Shown here one piece after another: positions 14,904 through 31,915 of a DNA stretch of 64,000 nucleotides; within the stretch, counting starts at the first letter, position 1, and every line of letters begins with the position of its first letter. Position numbers and translations under genes: made by a program. This stretch comes from Rosettibacter firmus (GTDB taxonomy: Bacteria; Bacteroidota; Ignavibacteria; Ignavibacteriales; Melioribacteraceae). The stretch lies in the NCBI RefSeq assembly GCF_036860695.1, contig NZ_JAYKGJ010000001.1, positions 1,364,001-1,428,000 on the forward strand. Reading direction: 5' to 3'. Under the pieces are notes generated by a model that made no database searches, was not told the DNA's origin, and saw only the letters and a list, made by a program, of their open reading frames with translations.

Positions 14904-16349
14904 CTAATTTAATCTATAATTATTGTCTTCTAATAATCTCTTAAATGAATCTTCTGTAAGTCTATATGATTGTTGTATAGGTTCTTGATAAGCTCCAATC
15001 TCATAGCCTTCGAGCAATCTTTTAGAATAATCTGTTGTTAATCTTAATGTACCATCCTCTAATAACCTGCTTGTAAAAGGTATAATCCCAACCTGTCTTA
15101 GTGATATTTTGGTAGTATTTTTAATAAAATTATATTTAAAACGAGTTGCTCTGAAAACAATATCGCTACCTGGGATCATATAAAAACCCGGTTCCCAGTT
15201 CAATCCTTTTACTTCTATTTCTACACCAATTCTTTCGGATTTAATTTTCTCCCATACATCATCCGCAACAATTTTATATAATGCTTTATAATCTGAATAA
15301 GAGCCATCTAATTTTTTATAACGGATACGATCAAATTCAATCCAATAAATTGTTGAGTTATATATAACTGCTATGCCACTATACCCACCACCAGGATAAG
15401 TACCGGCAGGTTGATCAATGTAAAGTTTCTCACATAATCTATCCCCATCCACATAATTGCCTAATTGATAAATGTAATAATTATTATCTTTCGGATAACC
15501 CCCTTTCCACACATTTACTTGCATTCCTTTTATGCGTTGTATCATTTTATAGTCGGATATTGATATTATTTGATTGTGTGTTATAACATTTATATAGTTG
15601 AATTCGATAAAACGAGGAATTAAATACAGAGTTCTATTTTGCCCTACATATACTATTAAATTATAATTAACTAAAATCGATTTCAAAACATCGTTAATCG
15701 TTGCATAATTAGAATTTTGCCCATAATAAAATGATAACGCAGCTCTAAATTGATTAAATGGGAAAGTTATATATTCAGTATAATTTATAAGTATTTGGCC
15801 TTCGAGATTGCTTAGACATATAAGATTATTGACATAAGGATCATAGAAATAGTGTGTAAAAATATCATAGATAATTTCAGTTATTAATTTTGTATCATCC
15901 AAATTATAATTAAAAGGATTAAGTTTTGGATCGAGATCTTTTATTCTACTATATTCATCGATAAGATTTAATCTGATAGATTTTTCCATATAATTCAATT
16001 TCATTTTATCTAAGTCTTTGTCAACATAACCTTTCCAGATTAAATTCCCATTTATTCTAATATAAGTATGAATTGACCACCTGTTCCTATATGCGATATA
16101 GTTAAATAAATCAATAACATCTTTCAAAGGTTTATCTAATAGACAAAATTCTATATTAATTTCGCCTGGCATCATTATTAGATCGCTATCATCATCATTC
16201 CCAATTTTTAACTCGCTCATATTTAATAATTCTGCATTTAAATCAATTCCTTCATCAGGAGGAAGTATATATGGTGTTAATATCATTTCAATCTGTAAAT
16301 TACCAGCTGGTATTATGCTGTTTATGTATATTTTCTGTACGTAATACAT
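14904..16349 (-). CDS. Distal tail/baseplate-like protein
   Basis: 481 residues, located directly after the tape measure gene and before the fibre, the position of distal tail or hub proteins in siphoviruses. Visible features include an IYINSIIPAGNLQIEMIL start and a GNLIWKGYVDKDLDKM segment like those in tail-hub proteins. The C-terminus contains imperfect repeats of the form (Y/R)RLxEDxxxRLL (RLLEDGTLRLT, YRLTEDSFKRLLEDN). The family is not recognised with certainty; the assignment rests mainly on order. The stop lies 10 bp before the fibre's ATG. Confidence 0.6.
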   Translation of the reverse strand: MYYVQKIYINSIIPAGNLQIEMILTPYILPPDEGIDLNAELLNMSELKIGNDDDSDLIMMPGEINIEFCLLDKPLKDVIDLFNYIAYRNRWSIHTYIRINGNLIWKGYVDKDLDKMKLNYMEKSIRLNLIDEYSRIKDLDPKLNPFNYNLDDTKLITEIIYDIFTHYFYDPYVNNLICLSNLEGQILINYTEYITFPFNQFRAALSFYYGQNSNYATINDVLKSILVNYNLIVYVGQNRTLYLIPRFIEFNYINVITHNQIISISDYKMIQRIKGMQVNVWKGGYPKDNNYYIYQLGNYVDGDRLCEKLYIDQPAGTYPGGGYSGIAVIYNSTIYWIEFDRIRYKKLDGSYSDYKALYKIVADDVWEKIKSERIGVEIEVKGLNWEPGFYMIPGSDIVFRATRFKYNFIKNTTKISLRQVGIIPFTSRLLEDGTLRLTTDYSKRLLEGYEIGAYQEPIQQSYRLTEDSFKRLLEDNNYRLN

Positions 16350-18688
16350 TAATATTGTATTTTATTTTTTCTTAAATTAATTTTATCAATTGCTGTTACA
16401 AAATCATATCCGTCAAATCTCAAAGTAAATTCTTTTTGCCAATTATCTAATTTTTCAATCAATAAATCATATCGATTATCATAGACCTGATTATTATAAA
16501 TCTGAGGTCTTAATTCTTGTTTAAATATTTCTACAAATGTTCGTTCTGGAGCTATAATTTCATTTTCGTAACCTTCTATAAAACCTGTTTCCCCTTTTCT
16601 TAATCTACCCCCTGATTGATAGCCCGGCACTTTTACCGAGCTTATCGCATTTACCCTTGCCAAGCCTTGTGCTATTGCTGTTGCTGCAGCTATAGAAGCA
16701 AGTGTAGGACCAACAACAGGTATACTCACGAGTGATTTATATGCAGCTTGTGCAGATTGATAAGTATCAATTAATGTTTGAGCAATTGCAAATAATTTAT
16801 ATGCAAGTGTATGCTTTGCAAAAAATAAAGATAAAGCCCCAAACATATTTGAATAAACTTCAAGAGTTGTATTTGCAATTTCTTCATCAAGTTCTGCTTT
16901 TCTACGAGCATATTCTTCATTTAAAGCATTTAACATTTCTGTACTATTTTCGTATGTCTTTATTTTTTCCTGTTCTGTTTGATACCATAATTCAATCTCT
17001 TGTTGTTTACTCATACGTGCATATTCTAAAATGTTACCATATTGAATATCGGTTAATTCTATATCTTCAGGTTGTTCTAATTCTAATTCTGGTGGTTTTA
17101 ATTTTAATTTTAATTCTATCTCAGTTTCATTAAGCATATTAATAAGTTGTGTAATATCTTGTCCGTATTGCCGATATAATTGAATCATTTCGTTTAGATG
17201 CTTCTTTTTTTGCTCTAATTCTAATAGTTCATTATCTTCAGTAATTTTTAATAATGCAGCTTCATGTCGTTGTTTTTCTGTTAATATCTCACGATTTTTA
17301 TCAAATTCTTTTTTTAATTCTTCATCAGAAAGTTTAATTACTTTCTGTTTTTGGTTTATTACTTCAGTATATATTTTAATTTTTTCTTCTTCGAGTTTTA
17401 ATAAATATTCTGTTTGTTTAAGTTGCTCAGATAGTTTTTTTGATTCTTCTGTATCATAATAGTTCTTATACTCATATCCTTCCTTATCTTTTGTGACTAT
17501 CTCTTTTTTCGCTTTTTGTATATCATTTTTAAGTTTTTCTATATCCTTGAGTATCTTTTCTTTTTGCTTTTCAGCATCATTTAACATCCAGTCGAGCTCA
17601 TTTTTTTTTGCTTTTAATGCATCAGAGCGTATTTGATCCAATATATTATTAAATGATTGTTCCCCGTTAGATTTTATGTTCTGCCATTTTTCATAAGCTT
17701 TTGCAAGTTCATAAAATCCATAACCAAGCGCGGTGACTAATGCACCTATACCTGTTTTAATAAATGCGGCTTTTAACCCGGTTAAAGCAACTCCAAATAA
17801 TTCAATTGATTTTATTGCTGGCAAAATTCCAGTAACTCTTAAAGTAATAAATGCAGTAGTAATTGATCCAAGTAATCCAATAAACCCACTCAGTTGTGGT
17901 GAAATTGTGTTTAATTGCCCGATTATATTAGCAATCATATTAACAAATGGACCAAGAGCCTGGCTAAGCATCTGTCCTGTATTTTCTTTCAAATCTCCAA
18001 TAGCATTATTCATTCTTGCAATTGCACCAACGCTCGTCTGTCCAATTGCCTCAGCCTGCCCACCTATTCTTTCATTAAGCATACTTAATATTTTGTTAAG
18101 ATCTCCACTCTTAATTATAGTTTCATCCAGTCCCTTAATATATCTGCCAATTAAACCTGTATTCCCTTGAAATAGATCTGCCATAGCTCGGGCGGCGGTA
18201 TTTAGATCGGTGCCCATTACTGTTGCAAGATTTGCTGCTTGGAGTGTAGCCTGTTTTGTTTGCTCAATATTTAATCCCATGGCGAGCAACTGAGCCATCA
18301 CAGTTTCTGTGACTTCATCACCGTATACGGTAGTTTGCTGTAACTTTTGTGCATATTCGGTTAATGATTTTACATTTTCATCGGTAAGTTGATTTGATTG
18401 TGCAAGAGCCGTGTTTAATTTTATTAATGCTGCTTCTTGTTCCCGGTAGGCATTTAGATGTGTACTGAAAGCCGAAGCGATTACATTATATGCCTCTTTA
18501 AAACCCTGTATTATCTCTCTTGCATTGTTAAACCCCTGCGATATAGCAGTAGTTAATCCATTTACTTCTTGTTTTCCATACTTGAAACTTTTATAAAGTT
18601 CTTTTATATTGTTATCAGTTAAATTAAGAGTAGCATTTGCTTCTTTACCATCTATAACTAATTTAAGAATTATTTCATTGGCAGCCAT
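16349..18688 (-). CDS. Tail tape measure protein
   Basis: 779 residues, the longest late gene. It sets tail length and helps DNA delivery. The N-terminal third has the TMP_2-type pattern (YGDEVTETVMAQLLAMGLN...ATVMGTDLNTAARAMADL, split here only for length). A hydrophobic region around 280-340 follows, then a long charged coiled coil (about 365-560) and a Gly/Ala-rich membrane-like segment (about 650-690) before the C-terminal domain. It comes right after the frameshifted tail chaperone pair, the conserved order in long-tailed phages. An 87-bp gap separates it from the chaperone stop. Confidence 0.9.
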   Translation of the reverse strand: MAANEIILKLVIDGKEANATLNLTDNNIKELYKSFKYGKQEVNGLTTAISQGFNNAREIIQGFKEAYNVIASAFSTHLNAYREQEAALIKLNTALAQSNQLTDENVKSLTEYAQKLQQTTVYGDEVTETVMAQLLAMGLNIEQTKQATLQAANLATVMGTDLNTAARAMADLFQGNTGLIGRYIKGLDETIIKSGDLNKILSMLNERIGGQAEAIGQTSVGAIARMNNAIGDLKENTGQMLSQALGPFVNMIANIIGQLNTISPQLSGFIGLLGSITTAFITLRVTGILPAIKSIELFGVALTGLKAAFIKTGIGALVTALGYGFYELAKAYEKWQNIKSNGEQSFNNILDQIRSDALKAKKNELDWMLNDAEKQKEKILKDIEKLKNDIQKAKKEIVTKDKEGYEYKNYYDTEESKKLSEQLKQTEYLLKLEEEKIKIYTEVINQKQKVIKLSDEELKKEFDKNREILTEKQRHEAALLKITEDNELLELEQKKKHLNEMIQLYRQYGQDITQLINMLNETEIELKLKLKPPELELEQPEDIELTDIQYGNILEYARMSKQQEIELWYQTEQEKIKTYENSTEMLNALNEEYARRKAELDEEIANTTLEVYSNMFGALSLFFAKHTLAYKLFAIAQTLIDTYQSAQAAYKSLVSIPVVGPTLASIAAATAIAQGLARVNAISSVKVPGYQSGGRLRKGETGFIEGYENEIIAPERTFVEIFKQELRPQIYNNQVYDNRYDLLIEKLDNWQKEFTLRFDGYDFVTAIDKINLRKNKIQY

Positions 18689-18775: not shown

Positions 18776-19332
18776 TCATTTATTTTTTATCTTTTTCCAC
18801 TCTGCAATTCTCATTTTCATTTCATTTAACTCACGTACTTTTATTAAATAATACCAATTATAACACAACTCAAAATCCAATTCATTTATTACATTGATTT
18901 TCGATATATCGCCATCTGCAAGCTTGAACAATAAAGGATCTATATCAATTGATGCGGGTTCATAATATTTTATTTTTAATTCACTTAATCTTTCAAGTTC
19001 TCTATATGTCCTTTCATATTCTTCATTTAAATGTTTGAAGAGCTTATCGTATTTTTGATCAAGCTTGTTTTTCTCGAAAAAAAATCCTTTATAATTCTAT
19101 TTATCTCTTCAAAGTCATCTTCGTATAATTCATTAATTTTATTTTGCGATGTATCAAGTATTATATTTAATAAGTCTGTTACTTTATCTTCTGCAAGTAA
19201 ATTTATAATTATACTTTGTTCGTCTTTAGCATTGGCAGAATTTATTATTTCAAGTATCTTGCCCCAATCTTTTAAAGTATATTTTTGTTTTAACCTATAT
19301 TCAATGCCATTAATTAGATACATTTTTATCAC
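18776..19332 (-). CDS. Tail assembly chaperone, long -1 frameshift product (GT-like)
   Basis: Reading the upstream gene to the T8 run at 19084-19077 and slipping back one base opens a second frame. It runs without a stop to 18776 and adds 100 residues to the first 85, for a fused protein of about 185 residues. The extension (FEKNKLDQKYDKLFKHLNEE...ELCYNWYYLIKVRELNEMKM...) has no start codon of its own near its beginning, which argues it is reached only by frameshifting. Lambda G/GT and many long-tailed phages use the same trick in the gene just before the tape measure. The fusion's role is to load the tail tube protein onto the tape measure. Confidence 0.85.
19027..19332 (-). CDS. Tail assembly chaperone, short product (G-like)
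   Basis: A 101-residue zero-frame product of the same start as the frameshift fusion, MIKMYLINGIEYRLKQKYTLKDW. It lies two genes upstream of the tape measure in an operon that otherwise lacks a chaperone. Zero-frame translation past the slip site continues for 16 residues and stops at 19027. It overlaps the start of the gene before it by 23 bp. Confidence 0.75.
   Translation of the reverse strand: MIKMYLINGIEYRLKQKYTLKDWGKILEIINSANAKDEQSIIINLLAEDKVTDLLNIILDTSQNKINELYEDDFEEINRIIKDFFSRKTSLIKNTISSSNI
19077..19084 (-). promoter_or_regulatory. Slippery site for -1 ribosomal frameshift (T8)
   Basis: On the minus strand the zero frame reads GAT TTT TTT TCG, so T-TTT-TTT fits the X-XXY-YYZ slippery heptamer. 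Slippage gives TTC GAG AAA AAC and enters the 100-codon open frame to 18776. No strong stem-loop was identified immediately downstream by eye. Confidence 0.8.
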
Positions 19333-19549
19333 CTTTTATTTTCTTTATTTCACCTTCTTGAATTATTTTTAAACTATTCAATTCTTTTAATTCGTATTTA
19401 ACTGAACCATCAGGCACATTACATATAAGCTCGTCATCTGAATAATCAAATCCACCAAGTCGACTGCTTGTATAAAATATTTCAATACCATTTTTATCGT
19501 ATGTACGCAAAGCATAATTGCCTTTGCCAATTTTAATTTTCAATAACAT
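19310..19549 (-). CDS. Small phage protein between tail tube and tail chaperone
   Basis: 79 residues, MLLKIKIGKGNYALRTYDKN..., ending in a Lys-rich tail that overlaps the chaperone start. It is predicted to be beta-rich with no membrane segment. I do not recognise it. Its position between tail tube and chaperone genes suggests a tail completion or accessory role. Confidence 0.6.
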   Translation of the reverse strand: MLLKIKIGKGNYALRTYDKNGIEIFYTSSRLGGFDYSDDELICNVPDGSVKYELKELNSLKIIQEGEIKKIKGDKNVSN

Positions 19550-19563
19550 AATCGCTCCAATTA

Positions 19564-20508
19564 TTAATAACCAAATTTGATTGTACCACCTGTAGTACCT
19601 TTAGTATCACTAACATCACCACCATTGCCAGAACCAACCAAAAATGTAATATCATAAATTGGTACACTCCCTTCCAATAATATTTTTAATGTTCTATTAC
19701 TATCATCTATCATAAATTCATCTGTCTGTGTCAACACATTCGTATTAAAATCGAATTTATCATATAATAATGTAGAATTTTTATCCTGGTAAATTACACT
19801 TTCGAGTTGTCCTTTATTTAGTCTTGTTATAAAATCTGATATTGCAGCCTCTCTGCCAGTTATTTCTAATGATATGATTAACTTATCCACCAGGCTGATA
19901 TTATTTAATGATTTTTGACTTTCTGTTTTTATTTTTAATTCACGTACTGTTATTAGATCTGATGCATTTAATAATGTACCGCCAGGCTTTTCAATCTTAT
20001 CTGGATTAAAACCTCTATAAATATTTATATCAGTACCATCGTCGTTAATTGAAGGGAAATTAACTGCAGTTTCATTATCAACAGTGTCAATAAAGACTAC
20101 AGCATCATTGTATGGCAAAGCTCTTTCAAGTGTTATTTTGCAACTACGACCTTCTTGATTGTAAGTCCATTCAAAATCAATCCCAAGCTCCTTTCCACTC
20201 ACAAACTTAAATACATCTTTATTCGATGCATTTTGTTTTTGTGTTATAATTTGAGTGTCGACATTACCATTAAGCCAGTTAATTAATTTTTTGAATAAAA
20301 AGATAGTTGGTTGTAATGTATCAACTTCAACTTTAAAGTTGAGCATATTTCTAAATTTTCGTTTGCGATAATCTTCAACTTGCTTAAAATGTTCTATTGT
20401 TAATTTAGCTTCTTTGCGAATCCCCATCGCAATTGGGTCAACTGGTGTGGTTGCTAATGTACCTTTATCGCATAATACTATTTGTTTTAATCCTGCTGGT
20501 GAATACAT
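19564..20508 (-). CDS. Major tail (tube) protein
   Basis: 314 residues, the first gene of the tail module, upstream of the chaperone and tape measure, as expected for the tube protein. It opens MYSPAGLKQIVLCDKGTLAT and has the mixed beta character and moderate size typical of siphoviral tube proteins with an added C-terminal domain. Near the end is a glycine-rich stretch (VGSGNGGDVSDTKGTTGG). The family is inferred from order rather than from a diagnostic motif. Confidence 0.7.
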   Translation of the reverse strand: MYSPAGLKQIVLCDKGTLATTPVDPIAMGIRKEAKLTIEHFKQVEDYRKRKFRNMLNFKVEVDTLQPTIFLFKKLINWLNGNVDTQIITQKQNASNKDVFKFVSGKELGIDFEWTYNQEGRSCKITLERALPYNDAVVFIDTVDNETAVNFPSINDDGTDINIYRGFNPDKIEKPGGTLLNASDLITVRELKIKTESQKSLNNISLVDKLIISLEITGREAAISDFITRLNKGQLESVIYQDKNSTLLYDKFDFNTNVLTQTDEFMIDDSNRTLKILLEGSVPIYDITFLVGSGNGGDVSDTKGTTGGTIKFGY

Positions 20509-24598: not shown

Positions 24599-24835
24599 AT
24601 GGATTTAAGTGCAGACGTCTTAAAAGTTCTTGCTAATGGGGGAATAGCAATAATTATATTTGTTATATGGTATGTTACATACAAAACACAATCAAAAAAC
24701 TATACGGATTTAGTTGAAAGATTATTTAAGCAAATCGAGCAAGATTTGAAATATAAAGAACTCCTCATTGGCATTTTGACGCGACTGGAAACTAAAATCG
24801 ACATTCAAGATAGGAGAATGAGAAATGAGCAGTAA
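24599..24835 (+). CDS. Small membrane protein with coiled coil (Mu gp25-like position)
   Basis: 78 residues. One membrane helix (about 13-30, GGIAIIIFVIWYVTY) is followed by an amphipathic coiled coil to the C-terminus. Mu encodes a similar small membrane/coiled-coil protein ahead of its terminase genes. The function is unknown; a holin-like or accessory role is possible. Its end overlaps the next gene by 11 bp. First gene of the plus-strand packaging block. Confidence 0.6.
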   Translation: MDLSADVLKVLANGGIAIIIFVIWYVTYKTQSKNYTDLVERLFKQIEQDLKYKELLIGILTRLETKIDIQDRRMRNEQ

Positions 24836-25076
24836 CGAATTATTAATTGCAAAAGGTCGCTTAAGCGAATTAAACGAACGATATAAAGAATATGAGATGA
24901 AAGCAGATTCTCTTTTAATCCAAATAAGAGAATTACTCAATCCATTCAGCGATTTCCTTGAACTAGATCTAGAAAAAGTATTGATGCTCGTAAAAGAATT
25001 TCGCCAACTACAACTTAAAGCAAGAGAATGTAGCGACAAGATTTATAAAATAAAAGAAACTTATAATATAGGTTGA
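24825..25076 (+). CDS. Small coiled-coil protein (Mu gp26-like position)
   Basis: 83 residues, almost entirely predicted helix (LLIAKGRLSELNERYKEYEM... and LDLEKVLMLVKEFRQLQLKA), with no membrane segment. It overlaps both neighbours, consistent with tight coupling to the small terminase. In Mu-like phages a comparable small coiled-coil gene precedes gp27. I infer the correspondence from order only. Confidence 0.6.
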   Translation: MSSNELLIAKGRLSELNERYKEYEMKADSLLIQIRELLNPFSDFLELDLEKVLMLVKEFRQLQLKARECSDKIYKIKETYNIG

Positions 25077-25468
25077 AGATGAAAAATGCAGCTTTATACG
25101 AAGAAGCAAAAAGATTATATGTAAACGAAGGTTTTTCAATTGATGCAATTGTAGAACTTTTAAAAAATCATGTCTCAAGAAAAACTCTATACAACTGGAA
25201 AGTTGCAAATAACTGGGATGACCAGCGCAAAGCTTATCAGCAGGAAAATGAAGATCTCCAGAAAGAGATTAAAGAAATTGCTCGCATTGCTATTAAAGAA
25301 GCTAAAGCTAATCCAACTCCGCATAATATTTATGCGGTTGTTAAAGCACTAAGTGCTCTCAAACTTATGCAAGGAATACAAATAATTGAAGATGGTAATG
25401 AAGAGAAAGTCAAAAATATATCAAAAGATACTATTGAATTCATTCAGAAAGAAATATTGGGTTTATAA
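25073..25468 (+). CDS. Small terminase subunit (Mu gp27-like)
   Basis: 131 residues. The N-terminus EEAKRLYVNEGFSIDAIVEL followed by VSRKTLYNWKVANNWDDQR is a helix-turn-helix with the KTLYNWK recognition segment of small terminases. These bind the packaging site and regulate the large subunit. A helical C-terminal oligomerisation region follows. It is unusual that the large terminase is not next: a tail-fibre cassette of about 2 kb separates them. Confidence 0.8.
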   Translation: MKMKNAALYEEAKRLYVNEGFSIDAIVELLKNHVSRKTLYNWKVANNWDDQRKAYQQENEDLQKEIKEIARIAIKEAKANPTPHNIYAVVKALSALKLMQGIQIIEDGNEEKVKNISKDTIEFIQKEILGL

Positions 25469-25637
25469 CCGAATCTTTCTGATTCGGCGAAAATGGGTTG
25501 AGACAGCTTATTAATTTCGTTTAAAACCCATTTAAAACCCATTTAAAAATTACGATCTTTTTTCGGACGATATAAACTATGGCTTTTTTGAGATCTTGGC
25601 TTATAAACGATTTATGAAAGAAATTTGAGGATATATA
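25469..25637. other. Non-coding gap with hairpin and repeated AAAACCCATTT
   Basis: CCGAATC-TTTCT-GATTCGG (25469-25487) starts on the base after the small terminase stop; there is no T run, so it is not a standard terminator. AAAACCCATTT occurs twice in tandem at about 25523-25546, and its complement AAAATGGGTT lies at 25490-25499, so an alternative fold is possible. No gene is seen. The gap marks the left edge of the inserted fibre cassette. Confidence 0.5.
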
Positions 25638-25964
25638 ATGGTTAAAATGGATCAAAATGGGCACATTTATTGGGTTAAGGGTGATACTTTTTATTTTAAT
25701 CTTATTGCACAAGAAAATAGTACACCCATAGATTTTACAAATTGGCATATAAAGTTTATAGTTTATGATCATAATGATGATATTAAATTTATACTCGATG
25801 AAACAAATGGTATTGATTTATCAACACCAGGTTTAATAAAATTTTCAAAAGATTTATCTACTATTAATATCGAGCGTGGAAAATATAAATATGATTTAAT
25901 CGTTACAAGAGCAAATGGAATAATTGAAACATGGTTAAATAATAAATCATTTATGGTAGAATAA
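25638..25964 (+). CDS. Baseplate/fibre N-terminal adaptor-like protein
   Basis: 108 residues, beta-rich: GHIYWVKGDTFYFNLIAQEN, then IDFTNWHIKFIVYDHNDD and ERGKYKYDLIVTRANGIIET. The KGDTFYF and WxIKF pattern resembles the N-terminal domains of phage baseplate upper and fibre-attachment proteins. It probably anchors the following fibre proteins. It heads a four-gene cassette of very AT-rich DNA between the terminase genes. Confidence 0.55.
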   Translation: MVKMDQNGHIYWVKGDTFYFNLIAQENSTPIDFTNWHIKFIVYDHNDDIKFILDETNGIDLSTPGLIKFSKDLSTINIERGKYKYDLIVTRANGIIETWLNNKSFMVE

Positions 25965-25965
25965 A

Positions 25966-26307
25966 ATGGTAACATTAACATTTATTAATAATAATATTAA
26001 TTTATCAACTTATATGTCCCCAATAACATTGTCTATTGCAACTTCTCCAATAATAATTAATCAAGGGGATACAAATATAATTGATGATAATTTGATTTTA
26101 GAAAATAAAACTTTTAGTTCATATAAAATAAATAGTACATATATACCGAAATCGATTATTAATGCGAAAGGAGACTTAATAATTGGTGATTTATATGGGC
26201 AACCATCACGATTACCAATAGGTTCTCCTGATTATATTCTTATAGTGGATCCCAATTCAGATAGGGGATTTAATTTTACAAAAATTATTGACGGTGGAAC
26301 TTTCTAA
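25966..26307 (+). CDS. Small fibre-associated protein ending IDGGTF
   Basis: 113 residues. An Asn/Ile-rich N-terminal part is followed by AKGDLIIGDLYGQPSRLPIG, the motif of phage fibre repeat segments, and the end reads KIIDGGTF. The same six-residue ending closes the next gene. It likely forms part of a trimeric fibre or collar. Start follows the previous stop by 1 bp. Confidence 0.55.
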   Translation: MVTLTFINNNINLSTYMSPITLSIATSPIIINQGDTNIIDDNLILENKTFSSYKINSTYIPKSIINAKGDLIIGDLYGQPSRLPIGSPDYILIVDPNSDRGFNFTKIIDGGTF

Positions 26308-26327
26308 TTAATATTAAGGAGGATAAA

Positions 26328-26786
26328 ATGCCACAAATAATTAAAATTAAAAGAGGATTACAAGCAAATTTACCAACAACAGGATTAAATGTTGGCGAAC
26401 CTTTGTTTACAACTGATCGTGGTACTTTACACATCGCTACAGATGCTACAACATTGAAAACTGTTGTACCTGCCATTGAGACTTTAAATACTATACCATC
26501 TATATCAGGAGCAGAGGATCTTTTAATAATTCACGATGCATCTGAAACAACAGGGCAAAAAGAAAAGAAAATTACATTTAATGATTTTAAAAGTGCATTG
26601 AATATACCGCCAACTTCTACAGATGAAAAAGTTGCAGTTGTTAATGGGGGAACTGCGGGATATATATGGGGGACAGATGGCACAGATGGAGTGATAAGAA
26701 TGGGGTCTTCTATGCAATGGGCTAAGGATGTAAGCAATAATTATGTTACAATAGATGTTGCTGTAATAGATGGAGGAACATTTTAA
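26328..26786 (+). CDS. Tail fibre protein ending IDGGTF
   Basis: 152 residues after a good AAGGAGG site. PQIIKIKRGLQANLPTTGLN, GEPLFTTDRGTLHIATDATT and LLIIHDASETTGQKEKKIT are phage fibre motifs: the last resembles EIVDASETDLSNKNKKV of the minus-strand fibre at 14.8 kb. It ends VIDGGTF. The next gene starts at the stop with a 1-bp overlap (TAATG). Confidence 0.65.
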   Translation: MPQIIKIKRGLQANLPTTGLNVGEPLFTTDRGTLHIATDATTLKTVVPAIETLNTIPSISGAEDLLIIHDASETTGQKEKKITFNDFKSALNIPPTSTDEKVAVVNGGTAGYIWGTDGTDGVIRMGSSMQWAKDVSNNYVTIDVAVIDGGTF

Positions 26787-27604
26787 TGGCTCGGGATAAA
26801 ATATTAAAATTTCTTCGCACAACAAGAGCTAATCTTGATAATCAAAAATCATTGGGTAATTTAATTCAAGGTGAGCCTTATTTAATAACAGATGAAAATC
26901 GTTTTGCAATTGGAATTGCTAATAATAATTATGAAGATTTTGCTAAAAAATCCGAATTAGATTCCAAAAAAAATGATTATGTATCGGCTAATTCAAGAAT
27001 CCTGGGAAGAAAGTCAACAGGTTCGGGGGCAATTGAGGAATTAACACTAAATGAAATTCTTGATTTTATTGGTTCTGCTCAAGAAGGTGATATATTATAT
27101 CGTGCTTCAACAGGATGGCAAAGATTACCTAAAGGCACAGATGGGCAGGTATTAACGCTGGCAAATGGATTGCCTGTGTGGAGTAATACAGGTGGCTATA
27201 AATCTCTTAAATATCTTACATCGGATTTTACGACATCATCAACCAGTCCAGTGGAAATAACAAACTTAACTCATCAACTCCCAGCTAATAAATTATTTTA
27301 TTTTAGCGTCTGGTTATTTCCCGATAATAGTAATCAATCTACAATCTATTTTAGTTTTAATATTAATTCAATATTATTTGCTGTGGCAAGACGAAAAATA
27401 GCGTCGGCTGAAGTAGCAGAAATTTCATATAATTATCTTAACTATATAATATCACATATCAATAGTTCCCCTAACTATCTTGTTTTGGAAGGCTATGTAT
27501 TTACAAATGCGAATACTAATGCAATCGTAAAAACATATTGTACAGATAGTAGTTCTCCGGCCATTATTAGGATGGGATCAGTGGTCTATATCGCTGAAAT
27601 ATAG
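26786..27604 (+). CDS. Tail fibre / receptor-binding protein
   Basis: 272 residues. The N-terminus has the same QGEPYLITDENRFAIG attachment motif as its neighbour. A middle segment (ILGRKSTGSGAIEEL, GTDGQVLTLANGLPVW) is typical of fibre shafts. The C-terminal ~120 residues (from about YLTSDFTTSSTSPVEI) form a beta-rich head with no recognised fold, the probable receptor-binding part. Confidence 0.7.
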   Translation: MARDKILKFLRTTRANLDNQKSLGNLIQGEPYLITDENRFAIGIANNNYEDFAKKSELDSKKNDYVSANSRILGRKSTGSGAIEELTLNEILDFIGSAQEGDILYRASTGWQRLPKGTDGQVLTLANGLPVWSNTGGYKSLKYLTSDFTTSSTSPVEITNLTHQLPANKLFYFSVWLFPDNSNQSTIYFSFNINSILFAVARRKIASAEVAEISYNYLNYIISHINSSPNYLVLEGYVFTNANTNAIVKTYCTDSSSPAIIRMGSVVYIAEI

Positions 27605-27612
27605 AATAAATT

Positions 27613-27717
27613 ATGAGAATAAAAATAAAAACAAATAATAACATAATTGATTATAAAATAGAAGTTAAATATAACAAATATTTCAATGCTACTAATTATA
27701 AAGAAATTATCAATTGA
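27613..27717 (+). CDS. Possible small protein after the fibre genes
   Basis: 34 codons from ATG to TGA, MRIKIKTNNNIIDYKIEVKY..., lying between the fibre gene and the large terminase with no overlap. It is Lys/Asn-rich and could be a real small protein or the worn end of a fibre gene. No clear ribosome site. Confidence 0.3.
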   Translation: MRIKIKTNNNIIDYKIEVKYNKYFNATNYKEIIN

Positions 27718-27741
27718 ATTTGGTTAAAGCTCAATAAACTT

Positions 27742-29109
27742 ATGAGCAATAACATTAATAAATATTTCTTACAATATCAGATCAATTGGCTGAATGATAA
27801 CAGTCAAATTAAGGTATGGGAAAAAAGCAGACGCATCGGTGCAACCTATGTGCAGGCTTACGAGGATGTGCGTGATGTTGTGCTTGGTAATGTCCCGGCG
27901 GTGTGGTTTTCTTCAGCAGACGAAAGTGCTGCTAAAGAATACATACTGTATTGTGCTCAGTGGGCTAAACTCTTTGACAAAGGTGCTCGTGATTTAGGCG
28001 AGCAGGTTCTCGAATCCGACAAATCAATAAAAACATTCACAATTGAATTCACAAACGGCAAACGCATAAATGCTTTGTCCAGCAATCCAAAAGCATTTAG
28101 AAGCAAAGGTGGTAAAGTTGTTCTGGATGAATTTGCTTTTCATAATGATGCTGTTCAGCTCTGGAAAGCCGCTAAACCCGTAATCACCTGGGGCTATCCA
28201 CTTAGAATACTCTCCACTCACAAAGGAAAACAAAGTTTGTTTTATAAATTCGTTGAATCAATTAAAACAGGCAAACTCAACTGGTCATTACATACAACAA
28301 CAATCTTTGATGCAGTAGAACAGGGTTTAGTTGATAAAATCTATAAAAGACCAACCACAAAAGAAGAAAGAGATGCCTGGTTAAAAGAACAAGAAGAAAA
28401 TTCCTTCGACCGCACAACCTGGCTCGAAGAATATTGCTGCACTCCGGTTGATGAAGCAATTGCATTCCTGTCTTACGAACAAATTTTTGCCATCGAACGA
28501 GAAGGAATCATTGATGATGTAATTCTGAGCCTGCCTGACGGCAAGGAAGCGAAGAATCTTTATATCGGTGTTGACATCGGCAGGAAGAAAGACCTCACTG
28601 TTATCTGGATTGCAGAAGAAGTCGAAAAGTTTTTATTTACACGAAAAGTAATTGAGCTCGAACGAACTCCATTCAAAGCACAGAAGGAAATTTTATTTAG
28701 TTACTTGAGCTTACCAGGATTTCGCAGAGCTTGTATCGACGCCACTGGTCTTGGTATGCAGCTTGCTGAGGAAGCTCAGGATAAATTCGGACGATTCAGA
28801 GTTGAGCCAATTACTTTTACTGGCAAGACAAAGGAAGAGCTCGCATATAATTTATTAAGGATGGTTGAAGATAGACAAATTTTTATTCCGCCTGATAAAA
28901 ATATCCGGGAAGATTTACATTCGGTTAGAAAAGTTACAACTGCAAGTAATAACATAAGATTTGATGTGCAGCAATCTGAAGTAAGCGGACATGCTGACAG
29001 ATTCTGGGCATTAGCACTTTGCTGCTATGCAGCCAAGAGCAATGCAGGAATCACATTTGCAAAATCAAAAGGCAAAAGAGAATCCTATAAATTAATTGAA
29101 AATTTTTAA
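27742..29109 (+). CDS. Large terminase subunit (Mu gp28-like)
   Basis: 455 residues. It packages DNA into proheads using an ATPase and an RNase H-fold nuclease. The ATPase has a Walker A-like SRRIGATY early, and LSSNPKAFRSKGGKVVLDEF contains the Walker B strand VVLDEF. The nuclease begins YIGVDIGRKKDLTVIWIAE with its metal-binding Asp, followed by RACIDATGLG and a late SGHADRFWALAL. The family is that of Mu-like transposable phages. Its base composition is more GC-rich than the fibre cassette just before it. Confidence 0.92.
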   Translation: MSNNINKYFLQYQINWLNDNSQIKVWEKSRRIGATYVQAYEDVRDVVLGNVPAVWFSSADESAAKEYILYCAQWAKLFDKGARDLGEQVLESDKSIKTFTIEFTNGKRINALSSNPKAFRSKGGKVVLDEFAFHNDAVQLWKAAKPVITWGYPLRILSTHKGKQSLFYKFVESIKTGKLNWSLHTTTIFDAVEQGLVDKIYKRPTTKEERDAWLKEQEENSFDRTTWLEEYCCTPVDEAIAFLSYEQIFAIEREGIIDDVILSLPDGKEAKNLYIGVDIGRKKDLTVIWIAEEVEKFLFTRKVIELERTPFKAQKEILFSYLSLPGFRRACIDATGLGMQLAEEAQDKFGRFRVEPITFTGKTKEELAYNLLRMVEDRQIFIPPDKNIREDLHSVRKVTTASNNIRFDVQQSEVSGHADRFWALALCCYAAKSNAGITFAKSKGKRESYKLIENF

Positions 29110-29133
29110 TGTAGCACAGACTATTAGTCTGTG
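29110..29133. repeat. Palindromic repeat before the portal gene (copy 1)
   Basis: A 24-bp sequence, TGTAG followed by CACAGACTATTAGTCTGTG, starts on the base after the large terminase stop. Its 19-bp palindromic core pairs CACAGACT with AGTCTGTG. An identical copy follows the portal gene. Confidence 0.85.
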
Positions 29134-29153
29134 CCTCAACAAATGAGGTAAAT

Positions 29154-30593
29154 ATGGATACAAAAACTTTAACAAGTGAAATAGCAACCAGACAGAATTT
29201 TGAGAAGATAGTTACTTATTGGAATATGCTTCCGGATCCTGACCCTATTCTAAGAAAAATAGGTAAAGACATCACAACCTACCGTGAACTGATGACAGAC
29301 CCTCATCTCTTTTCTACAATACAGCAACGTAAATCAGGAGTACTTTCTCTTAACTGGGAACTTCAACAACTTGATTCTAACCAAAATGAATATGATTTAA
29401 TTAATAATTTTCTCAATTCTATCAATCTTGAAAATCTTATTGATCAAATTCTTAATACACCACTATTTGGCTTTACAGTTTTTGAAATAATCTGGAAAAA
29501 AGATGGCAGCTATTTAATTCCAGAAAGAATTGATGAGAAACCGCAGGAATGGTTTTTCTTCGATCAATATAATAATCTTAATTATAAGAAAAACTTTAAT
29601 CCAAATCTTGGTACAAATGAAGGCGAGATCATTAATCCGCTTAAGTTTATTTTAGTACAACATAAACCAACATACCAAAACCCTTACGGCGAGCGTGTAT
29701 TAAGCCGTTGTTTTTGGCCGGTTACATTCAAACGTGGCGGATTAAAATTCTGGATTACATTCACCGAGAAATATGGCAATCCATTTCTGGTTGGCAAACT
29801 TCCTCGGGGATCTTCTCAACAAGATATTGATAACCTGCTTTCTTCACTTGATAATATGATTCAGGATGCTGTTGCTGTCATTCCAGATGACTCAAGCGTG
29901 GAAATCAAAGAAGCTCAACGCTCCAGCTCTGTAGAAGTTTTCAAAGAGCTTATGAACTTTATGAACTCCGAAATCTCTAAAGCAATTCTTACTCAAACAT
30001 TAACTACAGAAGTTCAAGATACAGGCACTTATGCTGCGTCTAAAACAATGGGTGATATGCTTGAAAAAGTGCAGCAAGCAGATAAGAGAATTGTTGAAAG
30101 AACTATCAACAAAATTATTGATTTAATTTATCAGATTAATTTTAACTCGCCTAATAAACCTAAGTTTATCCTTTATGCCGACGAAGATGTTGATAAACTG
30201 CTCGCAGAAAGAGATCAGATATTAGTCAATACAGGAATTAAATTCACCAAAGATTATTATATCCGCAATTATAATCTGCTTCCTGATGACTTCGAAATAA
30301 ATACAAGCGAAGCTTCAAGCTTCGCTGAAAAAGAAAAAGTAAACGAAGCTTCCAGCTTCGAAAACAAAGACATAACCGATAATATAATCACCCAGCTCCC
30401 GGACAAGCTTCTTCAACTCCAGATTGAAAGCACTTTAAAGCCCGTTTTATCGCTAATCGAAAAAGGAGAATCTTACGAAACAATTATGGAAGAACTTGCA
30501 AAAACTTATCCGGCAATGTCAACAAATCAACTTGAAGATTTATTAGCAAAACTTCTATTCATAAGCGAAATAATCGGTCGTAATCAATTGTAG
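29154..30593 (+). CDS. Portal protein (Mu gp29-like, DUF935)
   Basis: 479 residues. It forms the dodecameric ring at the capsid vertex for DNA entry and exit. DUF935 features include LTSEIATRQNFEKIVTYWNM, LFSTIQQRKSGVLSLNWEL, TPLFGFTVFEIIWKKDG, YQNPYGERVLSRCFWPVTF and EKYGNPFLVGKLPRGSS. Near residues 385-402 the peptide EASSFAEKEKVNEASSFENK is encoded by two palindromic words. The stop codon TAG lies inside the second 24-bp repeat. Start follows a GAGG site. Confidence 0.93.
   Translation: MDTKTLTSEIATRQNFEKIVTYWNMLPDPDPILRKIGKDITTYRELMTDPHLFSTIQQRKSGVLSLNWELQQLDSNQNEYDLINNFLNSINLENLIDQILNTPLFGFTVFEIIWKKDGSYLIPERIDEKPQEWFFFDQYNNLNYKKNFNPNLGTNEGEIINPLKFILVQHKPTYQNPYGERVLSRCFWPVTFKRGGLKFWITFTEKYGNPFLVGKLPRGSSQQDIDNLLSSLDNMIQDAVAVIPDDSSVEIKEAQRSSSVEVFKELMNFMNSEISKAILTQTLTTEVQDTGTYAASKTMGDMLEKVQQADKRIVERTINKIIDLIYQINFNSPNKPKFILYADEDVDKLLAERDQILVNTGIKFTKDYYIRNYNLLPDDFEINTSEASSFAEKEKVNEASSFENKDITDNIITQLPDKLLQLQIESTLKPVLSLIEKGESYETIMEELAKTYPAMSTNQLEDLLAKLLFISEIIGRNQL
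30306..30360. repeat. Two CGAAGCTTC-type palindromes in the portal gene
   Basis: At 30306-30326 a 10-bp stem centred on CGAAGCTTCAAGCTTCG, and at 30344-30360 CGAAGCTTCCAGCTTCG. Each encodes EASSF. The second word is identical in the transposase gene at 37425-37441, in the opposite coding sense. Confidence 0.85.
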
Positions 30594-30612
30594 CACAGAC
30601 TATTAGTCTGTG
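30589..30612. repeat. Palindromic repeat after the portal gene (copy 2)
   Basis: Identical 24 bp to 29110-29133 in the same orientation. The portal TAG stop is within it, and the MuF ATG is 13 bp downstream. Two direct copies bracket the whole portal gene. Confidence 0.85.
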
Positions 30613-30625
30613 TGTTGGAGTTGCA

Positions 30626-31915
30626 ATGCCAGAAAATATCGACATAAAACTTGCAATCGGACTTAAGCCAGAACAGATAATCGAATATCTTAAACGCAAA
30701 GGATACAAGATAAGCTGGAATTGGCAGGACACCTGGAAAGAAGCATACACCAAAGCTTTTACTGTTGCAAAAGCAATGAGACTCGATATATTATCAGACA
30801 TCAGAAATGAGCTTCAGAAAGCAATTGATAACGGTTTAACATATCAACAATTCAAAGAAAACTTAAAACCAACTCTTAAGGCAAAAGGCTGGTGGGGGAA
30901 AGTTAAAGCTAAAGATGTACCATCGGACTTCCCATTGCCGGAAGATATTGATCCGGAAAAAGAAATTCTTCTCGGCTCTCCCTGGCGTCTTAAAACAATT
31001 TATCGCACTAATATTGACGTTGCTTATGCAAGCGGGCATTACAAAGCAATGATAGACAACATTGATGATAGACCTTACTGGATGTATAACGCAGTACTGG
31101 ATAGCAATACAAGACCATCTCACCGTGCATTACACGGCAAAGTTTTCCGTGCTGATGATCCTATATGGGATAAAATATACCCACCAAACGATTGGGGCTG
31201 CAGATGTTCTGTTATTCCACTTGACAATGACGACCTCAAAGAAATGAATATACCGCGACCTTCCAGATTGCCAAACGAAGAAGCTGAGAAGTTTATAAAG
31301 AAGCTTAAGCCCGGCAAAGGATGGGAATATAATCCAGGAAAAGCAGCACTTGAATTTGATAATGATTTCGGAAAATTTTCACTTTATCAACTTCAACCTA
31401 CATTTAGAGATAATAATAGACCATCAATTGAAGAGTTAGATGATTCATATTTTATACAACAACCAGATAAATTCCCATCAATTAAGGAAATTGGTAAAGA
31501 TAATTTATGGAAATTGATAGAAAAAGAATTTGATTTTTGGGAATCCATCCCTTCGGGAAAAGACAATTATGCAATTATTCCTACTGCTGATAACGACCTG
31601 GCAGTTGTTTCAAAAAATCGATTAAATTATTTGCTTACAAAATCCGATAATAGAGAACAATTTATACCATTTATAAAACCTACTCTTCAAGATCCATTTG
31701 AAGTTTATCTTGCTTTGTATCAATCCGATAAAGGATTTGTTGAATATCGTAAACATTATATCGGTTTGTTCAAAGACAAAAAGAAAAGAAGTTATTTTGT
31801 TGTGCTGAGAATGGAAAAAGATTCAACAATATTCTATAATGCATTCCCTTATAACCTTAAAGATATTGATAGAGTTCGAAAGGGGAAACTTATTTATACA
31901 AAAAAGCCCCGATAA
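30626..31915 (+). CDS. MuF head protein with C-terminal nuclease-toxin-like domain
   Basis: 429 residues. The N-terminal ~250 are phage Mu gpF/gp30: a helical start then RALHGKVFRADDPIWDKIYP and PPNDWGCRCSVIPL. The C-terminal ~120 (from KFPSIKEIG, with KPTLQDPFEVYLALYQSDKG, YIGLFKDKKKRSYFVVLRM and FYNAFPYN) resembles the PBECR type (barnase/EndoU/colicin-like) domains found on many MuF proteins of temperate phages. These are thought to be injected toxins or host-takeover nucleases. The linker carries the third copy of the palindromic word (WESIPSGK). The stop codon lies inside a terminator. Confidence 0.85.
   Translation: MPENIDIKLAIGLKPEQIIEYLKRKGYKISWNWQDTWKEAYTKAFTVAKAMRLDILSDIRNELQKAIDNGLTYQQFKENLKPTLKAKGWWGKVKAKDVPSDFPLPEDIDPEKEILLGSPWRLKTIYRTNIDVAYASGHYKAMIDNIDDRPYWMYNAVLDSNTRPSHRALHGKVFRADDPIWDKIYPPNDWGCRCSVIPLDNDDLKEMNIPRPSRLPNEEAEKFIKKLKPGKGWEYNPGKAALEFDNDFGKFSLYQLQPTFRDNNRPSIEELDDSYFIQQPDKFPSIKEIGKDNLWKLIEKEFDFWESIPSGKDNYAIIPTADNDLAVVSKNRLNYLLTKSDNREQFIPFIKPTLQDPFEVYLALYQSDKGFVEYRKHYIGLFKDKKKRSYFVVLRMEKDSTIFYNAFPYNLKDIDRVRKGKLIYTKKPR
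31539..31558. repeat. Palindromic word, copy 3
   Basis: GGGAATCCATCCCTTCGGGA inside the MuF gene, same orientation as copies 1 and 2. This gene runs on the opposite strand to the protease, and the word is read GAA TCC ATC CCT TCG GGA, giving ESIPSG. It sits in the linker before the toxin-like domain. Confidence 0.85.

Follow-up and report, generated by a model that had tools for sequence, protein, structure and literature searches.

Does the gene preceding the tape measure gene in a prophage of Rosettibacter firmus encode one protein or two? The question arises from a short open reading frame (ORF1) that overlaps, at a run of eight T's, a second frame (ORF2) in the -1 register. This layout recalls the G/GT pair of phage lambda, whose pattern and wide conservation are described in PMC5009743. 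We analyzed a 64,000-nucleotide stretch of DNA (the window), corresponding to positions 1364001-1428000 of its contig in a 3.24-Mb genome, for which a preliminary description had proposed a G/GT-type -1 frameshift chaperone. Gene position, the two-ORF layout and the -1 register all support this proposal, and two versions of a tail-building helper protein are very probably made from one gene.

ORF1 lies on the minus strand (19027..19323), running from an ATG at 19323 to a TAA at 19029-19027, and comprises 98 codons plus the stop. Its unshifted product, which was aligned in 22 loci, would be a G-like tail assembly chaperone. The run of eight T's (19084-19077, minus strand) is read in the ORF1 frame as GAT TTT TTT TCG. 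It contains an in-frame heptamer T_TTT_TTT (19084-19078), within the codons GAT TTT TTT for Asp80-Phe81-Phe82, and extends one T further, to 19077, which bears out the slippery site named in the preliminary description. The -1 frame is open from shortly 5' of the T run, for 106 codons in total. As had been claimed, 100 of these follow the slip site, up to a TGA at 18778-18776. This extension (18776..19078, minus strand; 100 codons plus TGA) would encode a T-like domain, expected solely within the fusion, and the stretch between slip site and ORF1 stop (19027..19078, minus strand) is dual-coding. The fusion had been put at 185 residues, with ORF1 starting at a GTG at 19332. That GTG sits within AAAAGGTG (19330..19337, minus strand), which on direct reading is the probable Shine-Dalgarno sequence of ORF1, and several homologues start with M-Y-x-I-N, matching initiation at ATG 19323. 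The ATG thus appears better placed as the start, and the length of the fusion is corrected to 182 residues. AlphaFold models of the two parts have pLDDT values of 83.9 (ORF1) and 87.0 (extension); the latter is all helical, with a first predicted long helix at residues 2-32.

Directly 3' of the extension lies a gene (16349..18688, minus strand) matching several PHROG tape measure families (best E 9.2e-14), so that the order proposed in the preliminary description holds. In the relatives introduced below, the next ORF downstream, considered by length alone, has at least 451 codons in 19 of 22 loci; in two others the contigs end within about 110 bases, and in one (L030) the following 2994 bases hold no long ORF. 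On the other side, a 79-aa gene to which no function was assigned (19310..19549, minus strand) overlaps the start of ORF1, and an ORF resembling it by eye also precedes ORF1 in locus L003. It is preceded by a gene for a 314-aa product (19564..20508, minus strand), named putative major tail (tube) protein by position alone, with a weak match to a PHROG of unknown function (E 0.0066). The prophage is a Mu-like transposable phage, as shown by matches to Portal_Mu (E 4.4e-97), Mu-transpos_C (E 4.8e-17), Phage_Mu_F, GemA, Gp36, Gp37 and a transposition protein. Its terminase, portal and gpF genes form a plus-strand block (24599-31915) between early and late minus-strand genes, and a plus-strand block amid minus-strand genes is unusual for a Mu-like prophage. 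The last gene of this block (30626-31915, plus strand) encodes a Mu gpF-like minor head protein with a C-terminal PBECR2 nuclease-like domain (E 6.9e-19).

The arrangement recurs in related loci. A search of 196 related genomes gave 18 distinct loci in 17 genomes, window included, with three of the genomes (G006, G022 and G066) belonging to the same family as the window, and IMG/VR added seven loci. Three identical loci (L020, L008 and L009) were each counted once, with L028, L030 and L031, respectively, and L037 was counted in spite of being near-identical to L036. Three loci were kept out of the resulting set of 22: L003, with a one-base insertion in ORF2; L005, which lacks ORF1; and L016, a fragment. 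The last of these (G063:C236) consists of a piece of the extension (860-991) adjoining an apparent CRISPR array at about 1-860, the repeats of which are visible in translation. In all 22 intact loci, window included, ORF2 is in the -1 register and an in-frame heptamer of the T6 or A6 type lies inside the overlap. By the terms of the preliminary description, its reading would have to be abandoned if close relatives showed a stop, or a lack of conservation, in the -1 frame. We found neither in the intact set: the extension is open for 91-108 codons past the slip site in 22 of 22 loci, and its mean column identity is 47%, as compared with 30% for ORF1. One near relative outside this set is an exception, namely L003/L027 (G115, CP053447.1), where the one-base insertion in the extension would break the fusion. 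Some 640 bases of it align with L004 at near identity, and the insertion reflects either decay or an assembly error.

A profile search widened to 391 genomes of the class found matches in 25 and yielded 15 new places, 10 of them interpretable (the others were L043, which is broken, L054, L058, L063 and L066). The heptamer is present in the -1 register in nine of these 10 distant loci, including L062, with a GC content of 0.64. L065, whose ORF1 is also cut short upstream, lacks a canonical heptamer and was counted as a failure. Overall, 31 of 32 interpretable loci, window included, have both the -1 register and a heptamer of the T6 or A6 type. When 395 sampled genomes of the phylum were searched, nine had a match, none of them outside the class. 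The letters of the site vary: in L011 and L013 it reads A_AAA_AAA and lies, in the protein alignment, no more than a few residues from the site of the others, and L014 has T_TTT_TTA, which indicates that the heptamer is retained even when its letters change. In nine of the 22 loci the -1 frame is closed by a TGA immediately 5' of the heptamer, which rules out entry into that frame further upstream in those loci. A second in-frame A_AAA_AAA is found exactly 12 nt past the first heptamer in eight of the 22 loci (L004, L028, L031, L032, L033, L036, L037 and L038) and is absent from the window prophage; it could possibly serve as a back-up slip site.

Both parts of the gene evolve as proteins. Among pairs of 13 closer loci, many of which are near saturation at synonymous sites, the median uncorrected pN/pS was 0.40 for ORF1 up to the slip site and 0.42 for the extension. 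The latter value argues that the -1 frame is maintained as protein and, as judged from these alignments, purifying selection acts on the extension, which is conserved. The heptamer requires more caution. Ten other late genes, 3292 codons in all, contain 18 in-frame heptamers of the T6/A6 type, which corresponds to about 0.13 expected per 23 codons, and on this sequence background the presence in 31 of 32 loci is more than chance. Nevertheless, when synonymous codons were resampled using the codon usage of the window, the heptamer recurred in 66-97% of draws per locus across the 22 loci. Because a conserved Asp-Phe-Phe and AT-rich codon usage together produce such sites, the heptamer carries little weight on its own where genomes are AT-rich. 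Asp80, Phe81 and Phe82 are indeed the sole nearly invariant columns in the 22-member ORF1 alignment. Two further analyses, both performed after the site was known and the resampling result had been seen, concern the codons themselves and the distant loci. In 12 sequences (L037 omitted), 26 columns have an invariant residue; two of these are Trp, leaving 24 with a synonymous choice, and a single codon is used throughout at just two of the 24, GAT80 and TTT81. The codon for Phe82 is TTT in 10 sequences and TTC in two, and this constancy at codons 80-82 is what a T_TTT_TTY site would be expected to show. For six distant loci whose GC content is 0.43-0.64, resampling recreated the heptamer in only 6-31% of draws each, and it is present in six of six. 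The values for the AT-rich distant loci L055 (90%) and L056 (62%) make its presence there unsurprising, and L068, for which there were no codons, was left out of this comparison.

Recoding signals may include an RNA structure 3' of the slip site, which we sought using pseudoknot-free models. In the window prophage, the 60-90 nt that follow the slip fold better than shuffled sequences (z about -2.8 to -3.1), and two possible hairpins can be drawn (19020..19064, minus strand); these concern the window prophage alone and find no support in the alignment of relatives. RNAalifold on 12 sequences returned -1.33 kcal/mol with 0 of 7 pairs compensated, the solely predicted pairing being that of the T run with an A run. 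Single-sequence folds of the 22 loci gave a mean z of -0.83 downstream versus -0.14 upstream, with very uneven values in either direction. We therefore rejected a conserved stimulatory hairpin, given the lack of covariation in the 12 sequences and the uneven z scores in the 22 loci. Any structure is possibly confined to the window prophage, and the slippery heptamer is the one element of the signal that is conserved.

Homology searches did not name the protein. No chaperone-named Pfam or PHROG family matched 22 ORF1 members at E 0.1, no chaperone-named PHROG matched 22 extension members at E 0.1, and no chaperone-named family of either collection matched the window fusion at E 1. The best match of the fusion was phrog_15521, of unknown function (E 9.2e-4, residues 69-104). 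A PDB sequence search returned nothing naming the protein, and tblastn of the window fusion against INPHARED phages gave no matches at E 1. Foldseek likewise returned nothing at E 0.001 for ORF1 against PDB and BFVD or for the extension against BFVD; the best BFVD entry for ORF1 was the unnamed A0A516L841 (TMq 0.69, E 0.07), and an entry named tail assembly chaperone, A0A8S5LMY4, had an E of 0.89. When the extension was compared by VIA-align with the PDB candidates of Foldseek, it resembled helical proteins with Z up to 6.2, a likeness that we took for a common arrangement. The ORF1 model (1-91) aligns with the HK97 chaperone (PDB 2ob9) over 73 residues, but with a Z of just 2.9, an rmsd of 3.9 and 11% identity, as the second entry, tied with unrelated folds. 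This modeled similarity seems too weak to count.

ORF1 carries an in-frame X_XXY_YYZ heptamer close to its 3' end and is followed by ORF2 in the -1 register, the pair is directly upstream of the tape measure gene, and the -1 extension is conserved as protein without a start of its own near its beginning. Lambda gpG/gpGT, in the account given in PMC5009743, shares the gene position before the tape measure, a short G ORF, an extension in the -1 frame that is entered shortly before that ORF ends, and a fusion linking the two products. The present locus differs from it in its heptamer, which is T_TTT_TTT or T_TTT_TTC, and A_AAA_AAA in a few relatives, and in the absence of a chaperone-named profile match. 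Compared with the chaperone of Mu (FluMu gp41 type), both the transposable Mu-like nature of the phage and the position of the gene are alike. However, Mu is described in PMC2628397 as having a contractile tail and shifting by -2, whereas the shift here would be -1 and a search of the R. firmus genome, with a positive control in 3 of 14 genomes, did not find the sheath family PF04984. A contractile tail, judged from PF04984 as the one sheath family considered, is unlikely.

If the fusion is made, the polymerase rather than the ribosome might be responsible: RNA polymerase could add a U within the run of eight T's, so that part of the mRNA would encode the fusion by ordinary translation. Such slippage is efficient in bacteria on runs of nine A's or T's, according to PMC5009743, and runs of 9-10 T's or A's are found in eight of the 22 loci. 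The full distribution, however, is T6 in four loci, T7 in seven, T8 in three, T9 in six, and A9 and A10 in one each. The -1 register is kept all the same in the five loci with just six T's (L014, L025, L028 and L030 in this set, plus the distant L067) and in the seven with seven, and what is conserved is an in-frame heptamer with a free seventh base, not the length of the run. Since the four six-T and seven seven-T loci of the set are too short for the known nine-base polymerase slippage, ribosomal slipping is the simpler common cause, and we consider transcriptional slippage distinctly improbable as the explanation. Somewhat less improbable, though still doubtful, is an undescribed chaperone family of Ignavibacteria phages in which a bare six-T/six-A heptamer operates without a conserved stimulator, the run drifts from 6 to 10, and ribosomal and polymerase slippage both feed the fusion or replace each other.

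Initiation inside ORF1, or coupled re-initiation, could instead release a separate T protein from the -1 frame. The two ORFs do overlap, and a 51-aa ORF with a TTG start (18776-18931) figures in the mechanical ORF list. But this TTG at 18931 is the earliest ATG, GTG or TTG of the -1 open frame, after 55 of its 106 codons and beyond the first long helix, in agreement with the claim that no start codon lies near the beginning. Only two of 15 loci (L011 and L015) have any of these codons in the first 30, and similarity among relatives begins immediately past the slip site, which makes this route very hard to credit. A sequencing error or a decaying gene, by which an indel in the T run split an ancestral single ORF, has a negligible probability: homopolymers are error-prone, the ORF2 of L003/L027 contains an indel at another place, and two loci (L005 and L043) are broken, yet 31 of the 32 loci that could be interpreted, which come from many assemblies and IMG/VR contigs, agree in register and site type, and no uninterrupted fusion ORF was seen in any locus inspected, close or distant.

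We are thus left with a lambda-like G/GT chaperone pair produced by -1 ribosomal frameshifting, a reading in which we have considerable confidence. Most ribosomes would stop at the ORF1 TAA and release the 98-residue G-like chaperone. A minority would slip back by one base when tRNA-Phe occupies the P and A sites on T_TTT_TTT, re-pairing with TTT TTT; a tandem slip on an X_XXY_YYZ heptamer restores pairing in both sites, as set out in PMC10885494. Reading of 100 more codons would then yield the 182-residue GT-like fusion. By analogy with lambda, the tape measure protein would be coated by many copies of G and few of GT, and tail tube subunits would be brought in by the T domain, functions to which gene order and architecture point. 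That the locus works in a G/GT-like manner has a high likelihood; descent from the G/GT family is a separate claim, which this grade does not cover.

The recoding trick itself has long been known from phage lambda and is not a new kind of biology. A limited literature search, which is no proof of being unpublished, found no paper on an Ignavibacter prophage that is Mu-like or has a frameshift. What the locus offers is the extension of a well-known recoding event to phages of Ignavibacteria and to a protein family that is not named chaperone in the Pfam and PHROG copies used, in a gene whose second half could easily be lost in automatic annotation. With no conserved stimulator seen, the 31 loci with runs of at least six T's or A's represent natural variants in which slippery letters and run length may be related to the shift.
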